Source: a virus
Virus record (IMG/VR): IMGVR_UViG_3300021389_000055
Location: 1-39,764 of that record
Strand: one strand, 5' to 3'
Length of the DNA: 39,764 bases
In this document: positions 414 to 31,112 of the stretch, piece after piece
Layout: each line of letters starts with the position of its first letter
Position numbering within the stretch: position 1 is the first letter of the stretch
Notes under the pieces: generated by a model
Seen by the model: only the letters and a program-made list of their open reading frames with translations
Told to the model about the DNA's origin: nothing
Databases searched by the model: none
Translations under genes and position numbers: made by a program

Positions 414-728
414 ATGACAAACAAGGAAATGTATTTAGGTATCTTAGGTAACGGTATACCAAAGGGAGAAACTAAGGCCGCGATGTTTGCGCTACACAAC
501 AAGTGGTATGGTAAGAGTCCTTACATCTTAAAGGTGGAGAACCCTAATACTTTCTGCGGGTCGTGTATCCAACGTGTGAAGGCTAACGTATGGAAGCTGT
601 ATCACAGCGACCTGTATCGGTGGTCTTATAAAGAGATTGAGTTTACAGGTAAGTTAGGATTGCACAACGCACCTATCTACAAACTGACACAAGAGGAGTT
701 GAGTAAGAATATAATTAGAAGAAAATAA
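414..728 (+). CDS. Hypothetical protein, first gene of the rightward arm
   Basis: A 104-residue soluble protein that I do not recognise. It is basic, rich in Lys, Tyr and Trp, and has a CGSC pair near residues 48-51 that could bind a metal or nucleic acid. It sits directly after late motif copy 1 and one base before the next gene, so it begins the terminase transcription unit. Small DNA-binding or packaging-accessory proteins are common at this place, but nothing in the sequence proves that role. Confidence 0.7.
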   Translation: MTNKEMYLGILGNGIPKGETKAAMFALHNKWYGKSPYILKVENPNTFCGSCIQRVKANVWKLYHSDLYRWSYKEIEFTGKLGLHNAPIYKLTQEELSKNIIRRK

Positions 729-729
729 T

Positions 730-1035
730 ATGACAAGTTTATTACTAGCAGCCGCAATTACATTATCACCAACAGATACTATAGGCTTTGGTAGCCTAGG
801 CACAGAGATTAGAAACACAACAGTGATGACTTCTAGCTTTTACGAGTTTGATTTGATAGCTGACTTCTTAACTAGTGCTCGGTTCACGGAAGCTTACACA
901 CTAGAGGACGGTCAAGAGATAGTTATATTCCATAACAACCTAGACTACACACGTAGAGATACCGTGCTTATACGTGAGGTATCAGACGGCGCAGACGAGC
1001 ATTACAAGATGTACTACAAACCACAACAGAATTAA
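730..1035 (+). CDS. Hypothetical protein with hydrophobic N-terminus
   Basis: A 101-residue protein of unknown function. Its first 12 residues (MTSLLLAAAITL) are hydrophobic but short and lack the Lys/Arg of a normal signal peptide, so export is uncertain. The rest is polar and acidic, with a likely beta-rich centre. It starts one base after the upstream stop codon and ends one base before the small terminase gene, so the three are almost certainly co-transcribed. Confidence 0.65.
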   Translation: MTSLLLAAAITLSPTDTIGFGSLGTEIRNTTVMTSSFYEFDLIADFLTSARFTEAYTLEDGQEIVIFHNNLDYTRRDTVLIREVSDGADEHYKMYYKPQQN

Positions 1036-1036
1036 A

Positions 1037-1495
1037 ATGAAGAACGGTAACAGAGACAAGAAAGGTAAGGTAGTTGTAGGGCGTGGCTCTGAGCTGTCAG
1101 GAAAGCAGCAGGAGTTTATCACGCGCGTTGCAGAAGAAGGCCTAGACAATGCAGCGGCTATTAGCCGTGAGATGAACTATACATCTTACTATCGTGACCG
1201 CAGAAACGTAGGGACGGCATTCCACACAGAGCTTATGAAGCTAGTGGACTCTGAGCAGAAGTCTATAGAGGCAGCAAAGGGAATGAACCTCAACAAGCTA
1301 ATTACTATACGCGACCTCGCTATATCTAACGGTGATATGAAGGTTGCTATGGAAGCTATCAAGATAATGAACTCTATGCAGGGCCATAACGCTCCTAAAG
1401 AGGTTAAGCAGACTAAACTAGACGTTACTGCTACTATCGACTTGACAGCACCTGCAAACGACGAAGACGGTTACATTGACATAGACGCTCTCTAA
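1037..1495 (+). CDS. terS: Terminase small subunit (probable)
   Basis: A 152-residue protein directly upstream of the large terminase. Residues about 15-65 read as a helix-turn-helix (AAAISREMNYTSYYRDRR region), followed by a helical stretch and an acidic C-terminal tail ending in DIDAL, as is usual for TerS proteins that recognise the packaging site and contact TerL. The reading frame is open upstream to 974, but the ATG at 1037 is chosen because it follows the previous stop by one base after an A-rich stretch. The assignment rests mainly on position and the helix-turn-helix. Confidence 0.7.
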   Translation: MKNGNRDKKGKVVVGRGSELSGKQQEFITRVAEEGLDNAAAISREMNYTSYYRDRRNVGTAFHTELMKLVDSEQKSIEAAKGMNLNKLITIRDLAISNGDMKVAMEAIKIMNSMQGHNAPKEVKQTKLDVTATIDLTAPANDEDGYIDIDAL

Positions 1496-1535
1496 GGGCT
1501 TATCTCAGTCCAAACAATACACTGATACCACAAAT

Positions 1536-1569
1536 ACCCCTAGAGGCTCTTAAAACGTCTCTCAGGGGT
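1536..1569 (+). terminator. Hairpin between terS and terL
   Basis: ACCCCT-AGAG pairs with CTCT-C-AGGGGT, giving ten base pairs with one bulged C and a 13-nt loop. It is followed by CTTAATT, not a clean T-run, so it would act as a weak terminator, an attenuator or an RNA-processing site in the 87-base gap. Confidence 0.45.
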
Positions 1570-1582
1570 CTTAATTCTCACG

Positions 1583-2833
1583 ATGAAGTTAAAACTATAT
1601 ACACCTACACAGCCTCAGGTAGATTTCCACAGGTTGGTAAACGAAGACAAGCCACTTATATCTGTACTTGTTGCGGGACGTCAGACAGGTAAGACATACT
1701 TTATGCAGAACGACGCAGTAATGCGTTGCCTAAACACACCTAAACAGCGTGTATGGTTTGTATCACCTATTCAGGCGCAGTCCAATAAGGTAATGAAGGA
1801 CATCGAATCTATGTTCTCTGCACACCAAGAGCTATTCAACCAAATCATTGTTAGGTTTGATAGAAAGAACAACGAGATATACTTCCACAACGGGAGCTTC
1901 TTGAAGTTTAAGTCTGCGGATTCAGGGGATAACCTGCGTGGTGCTACCCTAGATATGATATATTTGGATGAGGCGGCGTATATGAAGCTAGACCTCATTA
2001 ATGCTGTACTACTTCCTATGATTACGCGTACAAACGGGCGTGTGATTGCAGCGAGTACCTTTAACGGTCCTAATTGGTTCTACGATTGGTTCACTCAGGG
2101 ACAGGACTCAGAGGTGTGGGAAGATATGAAGTCTATTAAGCGTACATACCTAGACCTACACGACCCTGAGGTGACTAAGGTTGTTATGGGTGTTAAGAAG
2201 TCTATGACTAAATCACAGTTCGACCAAGAGTATATGTGTCTACCTGTAAGCGCAGGGGTGTTGTTTAGCAATATGGAAAGCTCAATGAGCGACGAGATTG
2301 TTACAGACTACGAGCGCGTGTACATCGGAATGGATATCGGGGTGGCTCAGGATTACACTGTGATGACTGCAATGACTGAGGATTTCAAGGTTATTGACAT
2401 ACACAGATTCAACTACAAAGAGGAAGACCTTGACTATCAGGACTTTAAGCAGCGTATCCGTGACTTTTACTTTAAGCACGACGACAAGCTAGCGGCCTGT
2501 TACTTCGAGGTTAACAACAACGACTTACTGTTTGACGACCTTACAGAAGCTGAGGATATGTATAAGATGATACCTTTCCTTACAACCGCTAAGAGTAAGC
2601 CTGATATGATACGTAATCTAGTCAAGCTGTTCGAGGATAGAAAGATACAGATACCTAGAAACAATGAGCTACTCAAAGAACTTTATGACTTTAAGTCTAA
2701 GCGTAACGCTATCACAGGCAATCTACAATTCCAAAACACAGAGGGTAAGCACGATGATATGGTTATGTCCCTCGCTATTGCAGCGTACTGTGCATTCGAA
2801 GAGCAAGACGGAGGTGTAACAATGTTCTTATGA
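1583..2833 (+). CDS. terL: Terminase large subunit
   Basis: A 416-residue packaging motor that cuts and translocates DNA into the prohead. The ATPase domain has a Walker A motif AGRQTGKT (31-38), the typical LRGATLD segment (118-124) and Walker B MIYLDEAA (125-132). The C-terminal RNase-H-like nuclease domain shows the first acidic residue in YIGMDIG near 247, FEVNNN in the middle and the conserved HDDMVMSLA near 390. Length and motif order match complete TerL proteins. It overlaps the next gene by four bases (ATGA). Confidence 0.96.
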   Translation: MKLKLYTPTQPQVDFHRLVNEDKPLISVLVAGRQTGKTYFMQNDAVMRCLNTPKQRVWFVSPIQAQSNKVMKDIESMFSAHQELFNQIIVRFDRKNNEIYFHNGSFLKFKSADSGDNLRGATLDMIYLDEAAYMKLDLINAVLLPMITRTNGRVIAASTFNGPNWFYDWFTQGQDSEVWEDMKSIKRTYLDLHDPEVTKVVMGVKKSMTKSQFDQEYMCLPVSAGVLFSNMESSMSDEIVTDYERVYIGMDIGVAQDYTVMTAMTEDFKVIDIHRFNYKEEDLDYQDFKQRIRDFYFKHDDKLAACYFEVNNNDLLFDDLTEAEDMYKMIPFLTTAKSKPDMIRNLVKLFEDRKIQIPRNNELLKELYDFKSKRNAITGNLQFQNTEGKHDDMVMSLAIAAYCAFEEQDGGVTMFL

Positions 2834-3531
2834 TAACACTACAAAAACATATAAGCATACAGAAAGTCCTAGAGGCAGACGGTAGTATGGAGCTGTTCTA
2901 CAAGGACTTAGACCCTATAGGCGTAGAGCTGTTCTTTAACGACATAAAAGATTCCTACCCTGTCAACGAGAATGTAAAGAAGCCTACGTTTAAAAAGAGG
3001 ATATACTACGGAGTTGAAGAGATGGTATTCGGTCAGTTCATTATGGTCGAGCAGATACTCACGGGTAAGGCGGGTATAAACAACCACACCGCAGACCTAG
3101 AGCTAGCGAAGCTGCTTATAAGACCCGCTGAAGACATTATATTCGATAACGAAGACGGACACAAGGAGATAGCTAACGAAGAAGACATACTGTCGTACGA
3201 CCTCAGGGAAGTCTACTATGTTCTTAATAGGTTTGTTAACCGTAGGAATAAAACTATGTTTCAGGACTACTCAGGTGTCTTCTACGACCCAAAAGAAGAG
3301 TCTGAAGACGACGACGAAGGAACTGTACCTGACGACGGACCTAATTTTCATCAGCAGTGGTATTACTACTCGCTAGTTCGTATGCTAGCGAACGAGGATA
3401 TAACAAAGTACAACGAGATATATATGCTACCTATGAAAGAGGTGTTACCTGAGATGAGCTACTTATCGCAGAAACGCAAGATTGAAGAGGCTGAGCAACG
3501 CAAGCAACAGGCACTGTCCAAGATAAAATAA
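2830..3531 (+). CDS. Hypothetical helical protein after terL; tail-chaperone candidate
   Basis: A 233-residue acidic protein without a motif I can name with certainty. It has a helical N-terminal domain (about 1-150), a strongly acidic linker (EESEDDDEG near 153-161) and a C-terminal helical segment with a Trp-Tyr-rich start, ending in a Lys/Glu/Gln-rich tail. The C-terminal pattern (MP-x-K/E-EVLP near the end) recalls tail assembly chaperones encoded upstream of tape measure genes, but two genes intervene and I see no frameshift extension. It is coupled to terL by an ATGA overlap and ends at late motif copy 2. Confidence 0.7.
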   Translation: MITLQKHISIQKVLEADGSMELFYKDLDPIGVELFFNDIKDSYPVNENVKKPTFKKRIYYGVEEMVFGQFIMVEQILTGKAGINNHTADLELAKLLIRPAEDIIFDNEDGHKEIANEEDILSYDLREVYYVLNRFVNRRNKTMFQDYSGVFYDPKEESEDDDEGTVPDDGPNFHQQWYYYSLVRMLANEDITKYNEIYMLPMKEVLPEMSYLSQKRKIEEAEQRKQQALSKIK

Positions 3532-28488: not shown

Positions 28489-28659
28489 TTACTTATTGTT
28501 TATTGATTTAAAACCCTCTAGAATAAACATCATTGTGCCCCACATTAGTGAGCAAAATAAGCCCTCTAAAATACTCTGTGATACAATCATTGCTCCCGTC
28601 CCACAAGCGATAATGCCTTGCATATTCATTCGTAGGAAATTTCTGAAATCTGTACTCAT
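28489..28659 (-). CDS. Tiny membrane protein (56 aa)
   Basis: Translated from the sequence: a polar start (MSTDFRNFLRMNMQG), two hydrophobic stretches (about 15-28 and 32-47) and a Lys-rich end. No family recognised. It stands in an unbroken run of small - strand genes; the + strand reading frame over it is judged a shadow. Confidence 0.55.
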   Translation of the reverse strand: MSTDFRNFLRMNMQGIIACGTGAMIVSQSILEGLFCSLMWGTMMFILEGFKSINNK

Positions 28660-28661
28660 AT

Positions 28662-28739
28662 CTATTGTTTTTTCATTTTATAAATTAGGTAGCCATTCCA
28701 AGCTACCACAACTATCAAACCAATAATAATATCAATCAT
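28662..28739 (-). CDS. Microprotein with one membrane segment (25 aa)
   Basis: MIDIIIGLIVVVAWNGYLIY then a basic tail KMKKQ: a single-pass membrane peptide. Its start lies inside the end of the upstream gene (eight-base overlap) and it stops two bases before the next start, the spacing used by genes in this arm. Short length keeps confidence moderate. Confidence 0.45.
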   Translation of the reverse strand: MIDIIIGLIVVVAWNGYLIYKMKKQ

Positions 28740-28851
28740 CGTCTTCGCTCATTATTTCGAGCAACGCTCTGACTAATAACTTGGTTCTATCCATTTGCCG
28801 CTGTAACCAAATATTGTGCGCGGCTAACACTAATAATACTACTATTAACAT
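28732..28851 (-). CDS. Tiny single-pass membrane protein (39 aa)
   Basis: An N-terminal hydrophobic helix (LIVVLLVLAA region, residues 2-11) is followed by a basic-amphipathic stretch and an acidic end MSEDDD. It begins two bases after the stop of the sorting-domain reading frame. Topology is like small i-spanin or toxin-like phage peptides, but no motif proves either. Confidence 0.5.
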   Translation of the reverse strand: MLIVVLLVLAAHNIWLQRQMDRTKLLVRALLEIMSEDDD

Positions 28852-28853
28852 AA

Positions 28854-29057
28854 TTAAAATATACTTGTTGATAAAAACGACTTGTCTACTAAGGGCTTGA
28901 ATGGTGTGTTAGGGAAATAGACCCTAGTTATGTATATACCACTCGGCAGGTTAGGAGCTACGTAATAGTCAAGCGGACTAACGTGGGTTTTCTCCATAAT
29001 TAGTCGACCTGTCATATCGAAGAGTTGGAAGTCTATGAAGCCCTCATATTCCTCCAA
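28854..29057 (-). CDS. T9SS type A sorting domain, probably the -1 frame end of the upstream gene
   Basis: The 67 residues contain FQLFDMTGRLIMEK and NLPSGIYITRVYF, the core of type A C-terminal sorting domains that route proteins through the type IX secretion system. Read upstream in the same frame, the sequence stays open to 29111 and adds VVGGTFRIGGLEEY, the first strand of the same domain, which lies before the only local start (TTG 29057). So the domain is most likely made as part of the 29084-29851 protein by a -1 shift at A-AAG (29090-29087). A separate TTG start or a sequence error are alternatives. Confidence 0.65.
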   Translation of the reverse strand: MEEYEGFIDFQLFDMTGRLIMEKTHVSPLDYYVAPNLPSGIYITRVYFPNTPFKPLVDKSFLSTSIF

Positions 29058-29083
29058 CCCTCCAATCCTAAATGTACCTCCTA

Positions 29084-29851
29084 CTACTTTACGTAGATAC
29101 GGAATGGATTCTCATTGACGTTAGTTACGTTAATGTAGATATCCTCTTCGTAAGACTGACCGCCGTTATTACGTGTAGCCTTTACACGAACCGTAATCCA
29201 CTCGTTCTTTTCGTGGTCGAGAGGGGCCGTGATTTGAAGTTGGTCGTTCTGTACCAAGTAAATGGGAAGCGTAGTAGATACTCCGTTGACAACAGAGTAA
29301 GGTGTACCGTCTATAGATAGTATCTCTAGTGTTACCTTATTCTTGTTAATCTTCTTAGCTGTTCCGTTGCTCTTAGTCCACCAAGCAGACATAGTAGTAG
29401 AGAGAACCAATTGGCTGTTCTCTGCGATTGTAACAGTGTCGACTTGAATGTCGTCAATGTCCTTGCGTCTAACAACAACCTTAGTAGCGACAACCATATC
29501 TAAACCACCTGCATCTGTTATGATAGTGTTGAACAGGTATTCGTCTTTGGTGTCCGCGTCTAAAGCAGATACAGGCTCTATCTGTCCGATATCTCCGTTA
29601 GAGCTAGTTACGTTAGCAGTAGCGGGTGACATTTGAAACGCAGAGCCTACACCGTCAAACGTTACGGTTAGGTTGTCCGAACCGTCTTCGTCGCTACCGC
29701 CTATAGTAGCGAAGGCCGCTGTCTCTCCGTCTTCAACCTCTATATACAAGATGTCCGAAGGGTTGACATTTGCGTTAATGCTGTCAATCTCATTCTGAGC
29801 ATACGTGGTTGTTGTAGCCACCACTAGGGCTGTTAAAAATATCTTCTTCAT
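29084..29851 (-). CDS. Secreted cadherin-like protein (T9SS cargo candidate)
   Basis: A 255-residue protein with a clear signal peptide (MKKIFLTALVVATTTTYA, cut before Q19), so it is sent across the inner membrane. The mature part is acidic, Asp/Thr/Val-rich and beta-rich, with Asp-rich turns (GGSDEDGSDN, DADTKDE) and a VNENPF end as in cadherin-like repeats that bind calcium. It stops at two TAG codons in a row (29086-29081); the -1 frame continues into a T9SS sorting domain. If joined, the product would be about 332 residues and placed on the cell surface. Linked by TAATG to the nuclease-like gene upstream. Confidence 0.75.
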   Translation of the reverse strand: MKKIFLTALVVATTTTYAQNEIDSINANVNPSDILYIEVEDGETAAFATIGGSDEDGSDNLTVTFDGVGSAFQMSPATANVTSSNGDIGQIEPVSALDADTKDEYLFNTIITDAGGLDMVVATKVVVRRKDIDDIQVDTVTIAENSQLVLSTTMSAWWTKSNGTAKKINKNKVTLEILSIDGTPYSVVNGVSTTLPIYLVQNDQLQITAPLDHEKNEWITVRVKATRNNGGQSYEEDIYINVTNVNENPFRIYVK

Positions 29852-30621: not shown

Positions 30622-30684
30622 TTATTGTCCTATATCTTCGTTAGTTAAATCTAAATCTATGTCGGTGAAATCAAACTCTATCAT
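30622..30684 (-). CDS. 20-residue acidic micro-ORF
   Basis: MIEFDFTDIDLDLTNEDIGQ starts by ATGA overlap with the lipoprotein stop and ends one base before the next start. Such exact fitting on both sides suggests translation. It is strongly acidic (net about -8) and hydrophobic in an alternating pattern. Function unknown; a coupling peptide is possible. Confidence 0.4.
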   Translation of the reverse strand: MIEFDFTDIDLDLTNEDIGQ

Positions 30685-31112
30685 AACTCTGTTAATACCA
30701 TTGTTTGAATATCCTGACCCATTCCGTTGTACTCAGTGTAGCGGCTAATGTGAATGTCTCCGTTTGAGATACGTGCTAAGTACCAAGTCTCATTCCCTAT
30801 CTCTAAGGAAGTATCTGTGAGTTCAGCAGCAAACTTAAATTCCGTTTCGTATCTGTTTCCTAGCACGGGTATCGGTGTTATGACAGAATCCATAGTCATA
30901 GTCCACATAGTGCCGTAGTTAAAAGCAAGTATACAAACTTCCTCGAAAGACTCGCTAGAGTTAACGCCACCTGCCCAACCTGCTACTGAGGCAGACAACA
31001 AGTCAACCTTGTAGAATCCGTTGGTTGTATTAATGACACCTAGTGTCTTTACTTCGTTTGAGCAACTCGCTAGAGTCGCAGTAGCTACTAGAGCTAATAA
31101 TAGTTTCTTCAT
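30681..31112 (-). CDS. Predicted lipoprotein
   Basis: A 143-residue protein with a type II signal peptide: MKKLLLALVATATLASC, lipobox LASC with Cys17 as the lipidation site, followed by SNE. The mature domain is beta-rich (ETWYLARISNGDIHISRY near the end). It would be anchored in the envelope. Phage lipoproteins often block superinfection or serve as outer spanins; here the length and folded domain favour the former, but this is inference. Confidence 0.75.
   Translation of the reverse strand: MKKLLLALVATATLASCSNEVKTLGVINTTNGFYKVDLLSASVAGWAGGVNSSESFEEVCILAFNYGTMWTMTMDSVITPIPVLGNRYETEFKFAAELTDTSLEIGNETWYLARISNGDIHISRYTEYNGMGQDIQTMVLTEL

Follow-up and report, generated by a model that had tools for sequence, protein, structure and literature searches.

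A two-frame phage gene with a probable, divergent type IX secretion sorting domain in the -1 frame and a predicted frameshift signal

Two overlapping reading frames and their conservation

The window analyzed here is the whole 39,764-nucleotide stretch of viral DNA in IMG/VR record IMGVR_UViG_3300021389_000055. Its minus strand carries a frame-0 open reading frame (29084..29851) for a 255-residue protein with a signal peptide and one or more cadherin-like beta domains. The predicted Sec signal peptide, MKKIFLTALVVATTTTYA (29798..29851, minus strand), was read by eye with cleavage before Q19, so that the N terminus reads MKKIFLTALVVATTTTYA followed by Q, and it is conserved in the second phage described below. 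The search against cadherin profiles suggested by the original prediction gave a PF00028 match at residues 202-242 (29126..29248, minus strand). Its score of 25.6 bits (E 1.7e-5; 25.0 bits in the second phage) missed the cut-off of 28.8, and the domain is named cadherin-like rather than cadherin. AlphaFold produced no usable model of the frame-0 protein (pLDDT 37).

The C-terminal stretch of this protein is VTNVNENPFRIYVK, ending in ...NENPFRIYVK and followed by TAG TAG. The frame-0 stop (29084..29086, minus strand), which comparison with the second phage showed to be TAA there, stands directly 3' of an AAG codon and falls inside the first strand of the sorting domain discussed below. The -1 frame stays open between 29111 and 28854, and the first ATG, GTG or TTG in it is a TTG at 29057. 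Counted from the junction, this frame (28854..29087, minus strand) comprises 77 codons (VVGGTFRIGGL...STSIF) and a stop, and profiles, fold and selection indicate that it encodes a divergent type A sorting domain (CTD) of the type IX secretion system (T9SS). Both the signal-peptide protein with its two TAG codons and the open -1 frame were therefore as originally described. Readthrough of the double stop was rejected as a means of joining the two parts, since the downstream CTD is in a different frame. Elsewhere in the window, just before the terminase gene, two plus-strand ORFs that are in different frames, 730-1035 and 974-1495 (the latter with a GTG start), share 62 nt, which is either another frame junction or a wrong start.

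We compared the locus with an independent 62,108-nt IMG/VR contig from another metagenome (L004). The two-frame layout expected in related phages was present there; both frames and the slip site are the same, and the stop is TAA instead of TAG. The two genes are 77% identical at the nucleotide level, and their products are 87% identical in frame 0 and 75% identical in the -1 part. Frame 0 displayed a dS of about 1.6-1.9 and a dN/dS of 0.05. Downstream of the stop, the -1 part gave a dS of 1.31, a dN of 0.205 and a dN/dS of 0.157; the same DNA read in either wrong frame gave a dN/dS of >1.5. Synonymous changes were in excess in the -1 frame (p = 1e-6). The low dN/dS, the excess of silent changes and the conserved layout indicate that both frames and the intervening stop are under selection. 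If the long protein alone were needed, a one-base insertion would have done away with the stop.

A single base would restore one frame, as might be expected of a sequencing or assembly error or of a decaying pseudogene. However, the same layout recurs at 77% nucleotide identity in another metagenome, and purifying selection acts on both frames. Moreover, a second, near-identical contig (L002) showed 2 differences from the window in 5.3 kb of matching sequence, neither of them within the gene. Because the divergent phage keeps both frames and the stop, we consider an error or a fresh pseudogene excluded, its probability being close to nil. A 32-nt block identical in both phages, AATGAGAATCCATTCCGTATCTACGTAAAGTA (29085..29116, minus strand), finishes with the slip site and the first two bases of the stop codon. 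A scan for synonymous conservation at and after this block gave P values from 0.007 (22 codons) to 0.11 (10 codons); since the latter was just 0.11, we regard the block as supporting evidence, not proof.

The structural proteins of the two phages, where they match at all, are about 33-52% identical. Identity rises to 84-92% for the two-frame gene, a metallophosphoesterase and an Erf-like protein. As these genes are far more alike than the structural ones, they appear to form a shared module that was kept or exchanged between phages. The 62,108-nt contig was the one independent relative in the collections searched. In INPHARED, nucleotide and tblastn searches with the region, the frame-0 protein, the -1 protein and the CTD segment of NucA found no relatives, and a generic CTD query returned two weak, unannotated records. 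The frame-0 protein had no relative among GTDB genome contigs, and in 400 Flavobacteriaceae genomes a profile search yielded a single match, weak and generic, to the cadherin-like region. Scans of IMG/VR returned, beyond the 62-kb relative, L002 and an in-frame cargo gene (L017, below), just chance matches.

Candidate slip site and branched RNA at the frame junction

The original prediction pointed to a possible A-AAG slip site facing the stop. We found that this tetramer (29087..29090, minus strand), placed immediately before the frame-0 stop, is the sole Z_ZZN motif in the two-frame overlap and is conserved in the second phage. It precedes a conserved overlapping -1 coding frame, with a dS above 1 and the low dN/dS given above. 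A_AAG sites without a stimulator slip little in E. coli. Given a 3' structure, A_AAG is by far the shiftiest tetramer in that organism, within a tested range of up to 5.6% (PMC4066793). It is used by IS1222 and has been seen in Bacillus cdd (PMC5009743).

Downstream of the slip site, a two-sequence consensus fold revealed a three-way-junction RNA of 128 nt (28954..29081, minus strand) that starts 5 nt after A_AAG. Its outer stem pairs 29074-29081 with 28954-28961 and encloses two arms on the same strand. Arm 1 (29017..29065) is a 20-bp hairpin with a 2x2 internal loop; it is the most stable intragenic 52-nt hairpin of the phage and, with both strands of the entire phage considered, ranks in the top three 52-nt sites for stability. 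Arm 2 (28970..29011) has 9 bp. The other very stable hairpins, around 36224 and 25262 (minus strand), are each found shortly beyond the end of a gene (36285 and 25264) and resemble transcription terminators. Arm 1 alone was rejected as a stimulator, being about 20 nt from the slip site and thus too far. The outer stem closes this gap through pairing of GGAG-UAC, just past the stop, with GUA-CUCC some 120 nt further downstream.

Empirical rules for -1 stimulators of the IS3 type call for simple or branched hairpins of 17-140 nt, located 4-10 nt after the motif, whose first pair is G-C followed by at least 3 more pairs, with a stability of at least 7.6 kcal/mol (PMC4066793). The window RNA has all four properties: it spans 128 nt after a 5-nt gap, begins with G-C and then G-C, A-U and G-C, and folds with about -50 kcal/mol. 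The phage has 73 in-frame A_AAG sites, and downstream folding energy is lowest at the one in the junction.

All 39 of the 39 base pairs are kept in both phages, with 5 one-sided changes and 2 double changes (C-G to U-A in the outer stem and A-U to G-C in arm 2); slid controls were 36-53% paired. The consensus fold reached -42.3 kcal/mol, compared to -17.4 +/- 3.2 for column shuffles (z -7.7) and -17.8 +/- 3.9 after synonymous resampling with both proteins left unchanged (z -6.3), and none of the controls (300 or 400) was as low. Covariation shuffles were as high in 124 of 500 cases, a comparison of two rows that has little power, and for this reason the energy nulls carry the argument for the RNA. 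The pairing probability of the outer stem was 0.99 in the window and, depending on context, 0.37-1.0 in the second phage (0.37 with longer flanks). A search of Rfam found no family for this RNA.

Branched RNAs have many roles, and this one is supported by two sequences. The structure could act in mRNA stability or attenuation, with the two frames being joined in some other way, for example, by transcriptional slippage. We find this very unlikely, since the site has no homopolymer run beyond AAA, no U tract follows the stem, and both the position and the starting pair fit frameshift stimulators. With both frames and the stop conserved in a divergent phage, and a branched RNA at the right distance, the originally proposed joined -1 product of about 332 residues gains support. 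A peptide spanning residue 255 would be missed by trypsin, because K255 is at once the junction and the cleavage site.

The probable sorting domain and rival readings (ALTERNATIVES)

The claim that the -1 frame encodes a type A T9SS sorting domain was examined by several routes. The suggested TIGR04183 search gave 22.9 bits (E 6e-5), 0.1 below the curated cut-off of 23, and 17.8 bits for the second phage; the former score, although under the cut-off, is more than chance. PF18962 gave 14.7 bits against a cut-off of 27. We also built a profile from 20 type A CTDs of one Flavobacteriaceae genome and searched 834 sequences, consisting of the window ORFs of at least 40 aa and 500 shuffles; the -1 ORF ranked first (E 2e-4). 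A profile made from the two -1 sequences matched a single PDB sequence at E<1, namely 8glk_D (E 0.022), the NucA CTD as captured within the Flavobacterium johnsoniae T9SS translocon (PMC10994853).

The fold pointed to the same protein. An AlphaFold model of the -1 part, based on the two-sequence alignment, had a pLDDT of 78 and six strands, compared to the seven-stranded beta-sandwich that defines the type A CTD fold. Foldseek placed 8glk_D first among 350,542 PDB chains (probability 1.00, TM 0.56-0.62, E 0.05), and another T9SS CTD, 5hfs_A, appeared further down the list. As an E of 0.05 is weak alone, the fold match counts through its agreement with the other routes.

In the alignment with the 20 flavobacterial CTDs, FRIYVKVVGG falls on xxIYPNPxxx across the shift, and PFRIYVKVVGGTFRI falls on KLRIYPNPTSNFITV without gaps. 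The core motif D-x-x-G-[RK] is present as DMTGRL and DMAGRL in the two phages, and SG-[IVM]-Y is present as PSGIY in both. PL[VI]DK, also in both phages, aligns its lysine with the terminal lysine of host CTDs; a lysine near the CTD C terminus is almost invariant and important (PMC10994853). The PNP motif is absent, VKV taking its place, although the preceding xRIY aligns. The slip position is where host CTDs carry PNP. Since PNP is missing and the curated cut-offs were missed, we call this a divergent type A-like CTD and assign no family membership; to that extent the type A claim stands, with the NucA CTD as the top PDB match in both sequence and fold.

In the joined protein, the match to the NucA CTD starts at residue 257, a point that precedes every start codon of the -1 frame. 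The first strand thus does lie before any usable start, as had been noted for GTFRIGGL, but the domain probably begins earlier than was thought. Because the alignment with flavobacterial CTDs spans the shift, we take the last residues of frame 0 as the start of the first CTD strand. Judging from these sequences, the CTD probably straddles the shift, with FRIYVK (the xxIYPNP strand) coming from frame 0 and the rest from the -1 frame.

The -1 ORF could instead be a separate gene, translated without slippage by internal initiation or stop-coupled re-initiation at TTG 29057 or at ATT/ATC 29066. The TTG is conserved in both phages, and a GGAGG stretch lies just past the stop. We therefore looked at the translation starts of the phage. 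A Shine-Dalgarno (SD)-like sequence was present at 3 of the 47 gene starts examined, the remainder having A-rich leaders, and the start codon was ATG at every one of the 47. Ribosomes of Bacteroidota largely do without SD pairing (PMC6847099, PMC8710568). Such A-rich, SD-poor leaders are a Bacteroidota-like initiation signature that is useful for host assignment. Flavobacterial -33/-7 promoter motifs were not enriched, and a scan with the ERF protein gave broadly spread matches that indicated no host. Since phage starts are nearly free of SD sequences, in the Bacteroidota pattern, GGAGG is better read as half of the outer stem. Furthermore, both candidate starts are within the base of the 20-bp stem, and a product begun at TTG would lack the GTFRIGG strand that matches the CTD and, having no signal peptide, could not reach the T9SS. 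Taken together, these observations make a separate gene improbable, and translation of the -1 part by frameshifting is the reading that we retain.

A slightly more credible alternative, albeit an unlikely one, is that the frameshifting is real and the extension is an Ig-like decoration, virion-bound or periplasmic, instead of a T9SS tag. Ig-like domains appended through -1 frameshifting are known from phages (PMC5009743), a type A CTD is itself a small beta sandwich, and the CTD profile score is borderline. The protein nevertheless carries a signal peptide, and its gene sits among replication, nucleotide-metabolism and lysis genes, not among structural ones. A translocon-bound CTD came first in both sequence and fold searches, and D-x-x-GRL, PSGIY and the near-C-terminal lysine occur in both phages, all of which favors the sorting domain.

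The same minus-strand gene run includes a small lipoprotein, MKKLLLALVATATLASC... (30681-31112), with an LPAM_1 match and a 42% identical relative in the 62-kb phage; it is a possible envelope or superinfection-exclusion factor. Because this neighboring gene encodes a lipoprotein and has a relative in the other phage, the operon may target the envelope. Directly after the CTD are three consecutive tiny ORFs (28489-28851, minus strand). Two of them encode single-pass membrane peptides (28732-28851, 39 aa, and 28662-28739, 25 aa), and the third (28489-28659) encodes a 56-aa hydrophobic protein. All three resemble small membrane proteins of the holin or spanin type.

Proposed mechanism, known systems and meaning

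According to our model, one gene in this phage of Bacteroidota-type bacteria would give rise to two exported proteins. Most ribosomes would end at the frame-0 stop and produce the 255-residue, Sec-exported, cadherin-like protein, which should remain periplasmic because it lacks a complete sorting domain. The three-way-junction RNA, 5 nt beyond A_AAG, would slow a minority of ribosomes, allowing tRNA-Lys on AAG to slip back one base and re-pair on AAA. Reading on in the -1 frame would then yield a 332-residue protein with the type A-like C-terminal sorting domain. Since the slip lies inside the first CTD strand, the export tag would be present in the shifted product only. The host T9SS would carry this long form over the outer membrane (via SprA/PorV), where it might be released or anchored. 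The division between periplasmic and exported forms is in line with the use of mCherry lacking a CTD as the control in T9SS export assays (PMC10994853). Assays of this kind, with mCherry-CTD fusions, exist in Flavobacterium johnsoniae (PMC10994853).

We consider it probable that, through programmed frameshifting, a minority of the protein receives a T9SS export tag and that the protein is thereby split between periplasm and surface. In this reading, which draws on two independent genomes, we infer the frameshifting and the export and guess at the function. That slippage occurs, at some frequency, and leads to T9SS export and surface display is what these sequences most likely imply. Because the export tag lies in the shifted frame behind a conserved RNA, ribosome slippage probably sets how much protein reaches the surface. 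With somewhat less confidence, we favor the view that -1 frameshifting serves as a secretion dosage device, which would set the tagged fraction and hold periplasmic and surface or released forms in a set ratio. The function itself is a guess: the product may modify the surface of the infected cell through adhesion, for example as an adhesin present in two compartments, or through receptor masking or superinfection exclusion, any one of which is individually doubtful.

The phage protein resembles T9SS type A cargo (TIGR04183/PF18962), such as F. johnsoniae NucA, in its N-terminal signal peptide and C-terminal beta domain, and shares with it D-x-x-G-[RK], SGIY and the near-C-terminal lysine. It differs in that it is phage-borne, its domain is split over two frames, VKV replaces PNP, the score is just under the cut-off, and an 8-residue tail follows the conserved lysine. 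Phage use of the T9SS had been expected to be unusual; however, phage-encoded sorting domains have been described in cryophage T9SS cargo (PMC7468147) and in T9SS ORFs of crAss-like cluster 2 (PMC6949934), and what is new is the two-frame control. Their cargo consists of hydrolases and PA14 or BACON proteins, and the available text of these papers describes no frameshift. Unlike the cargo described there, the window gene has its tag out of frame within a frameshift cassette.

Two further sorting domains turned up in our searches. An IMG/VR contig (L017, 3300030104_000135) encodes at 433-3201, in a single frame, a protein of 922 aa whose T9SS sorting domain is typical (IYPNPTTD...); this is a further in-frame T9SS cargo on a viral contig or host DNA in the contig. 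In a Flavobacteriaceae genome (L120, minus strand), the sorting domain EYPADSYIHISLPETD...IKKLIKK stands as an orphan, no frame for a cargo protein being open upstream of it, and is probably a pseudogene remnant.

On the recoding side, the T3 capsid and Lactobacillus phage A2 also make a minority product with a C-terminal beta domain via -1 slippage (PMC5009743). Those extensions decorate virions, whereas the one described here has the appearance of a secretion signal carried by an exported protein. The A_AAG tetramer is shared with IS1222 (G_CGA_AAG) and Bacillus cdd (A_CGA_AAG) (PMC5009743), and the branched hairpin 4-10 nt downstream with its G-C pair is shared with the stimulators of the IS3 family (PMC4066793). 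In contrast to these, the window has C_GUA_AAG followed by an immediate stop, and its product would be exported, instead of being a transposase or an incidental extension. In function, the nearest analogue would be the eukaryotic peroxisomal targeting signals made by readthrough. The LDHB and MDH1 isoforms (PMC4359377, PMC4207609, PMC5133446) likewise gain a recoded C-terminal targeting signal and a dual localization, but by eukaryotic stop readthrough and with a very short signal, and they bear no family relation to the window gene.

In the literature searched, we found no bacterial or phage case of frameshifting that creates a secretion-system sorting signal, and T9SS and frameshifting were not found together in one paper. 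Phage T9SS cargo (PMC7468147, PMC6949934) and C-terminal additions by phage frameshifting (PMC5009743) are each known; their combination is new.

Recoding and protein secretion are usually studied separately. In the present case, the share of a protein that is tagged for export over the outer membrane of the host seems to be set by a structured element within a phage mRNA. Annotation pipelines would report an exported protein of 255 aa while missing the tag or giving it a wrong start, and recoded phage secretion signals may therefore go overlooked. If our model is true, the gene would be a compact natural device that divides one protein between two compartments, and a bacterial counterpart of the targeting signals that eukaryotes make by readthrough.
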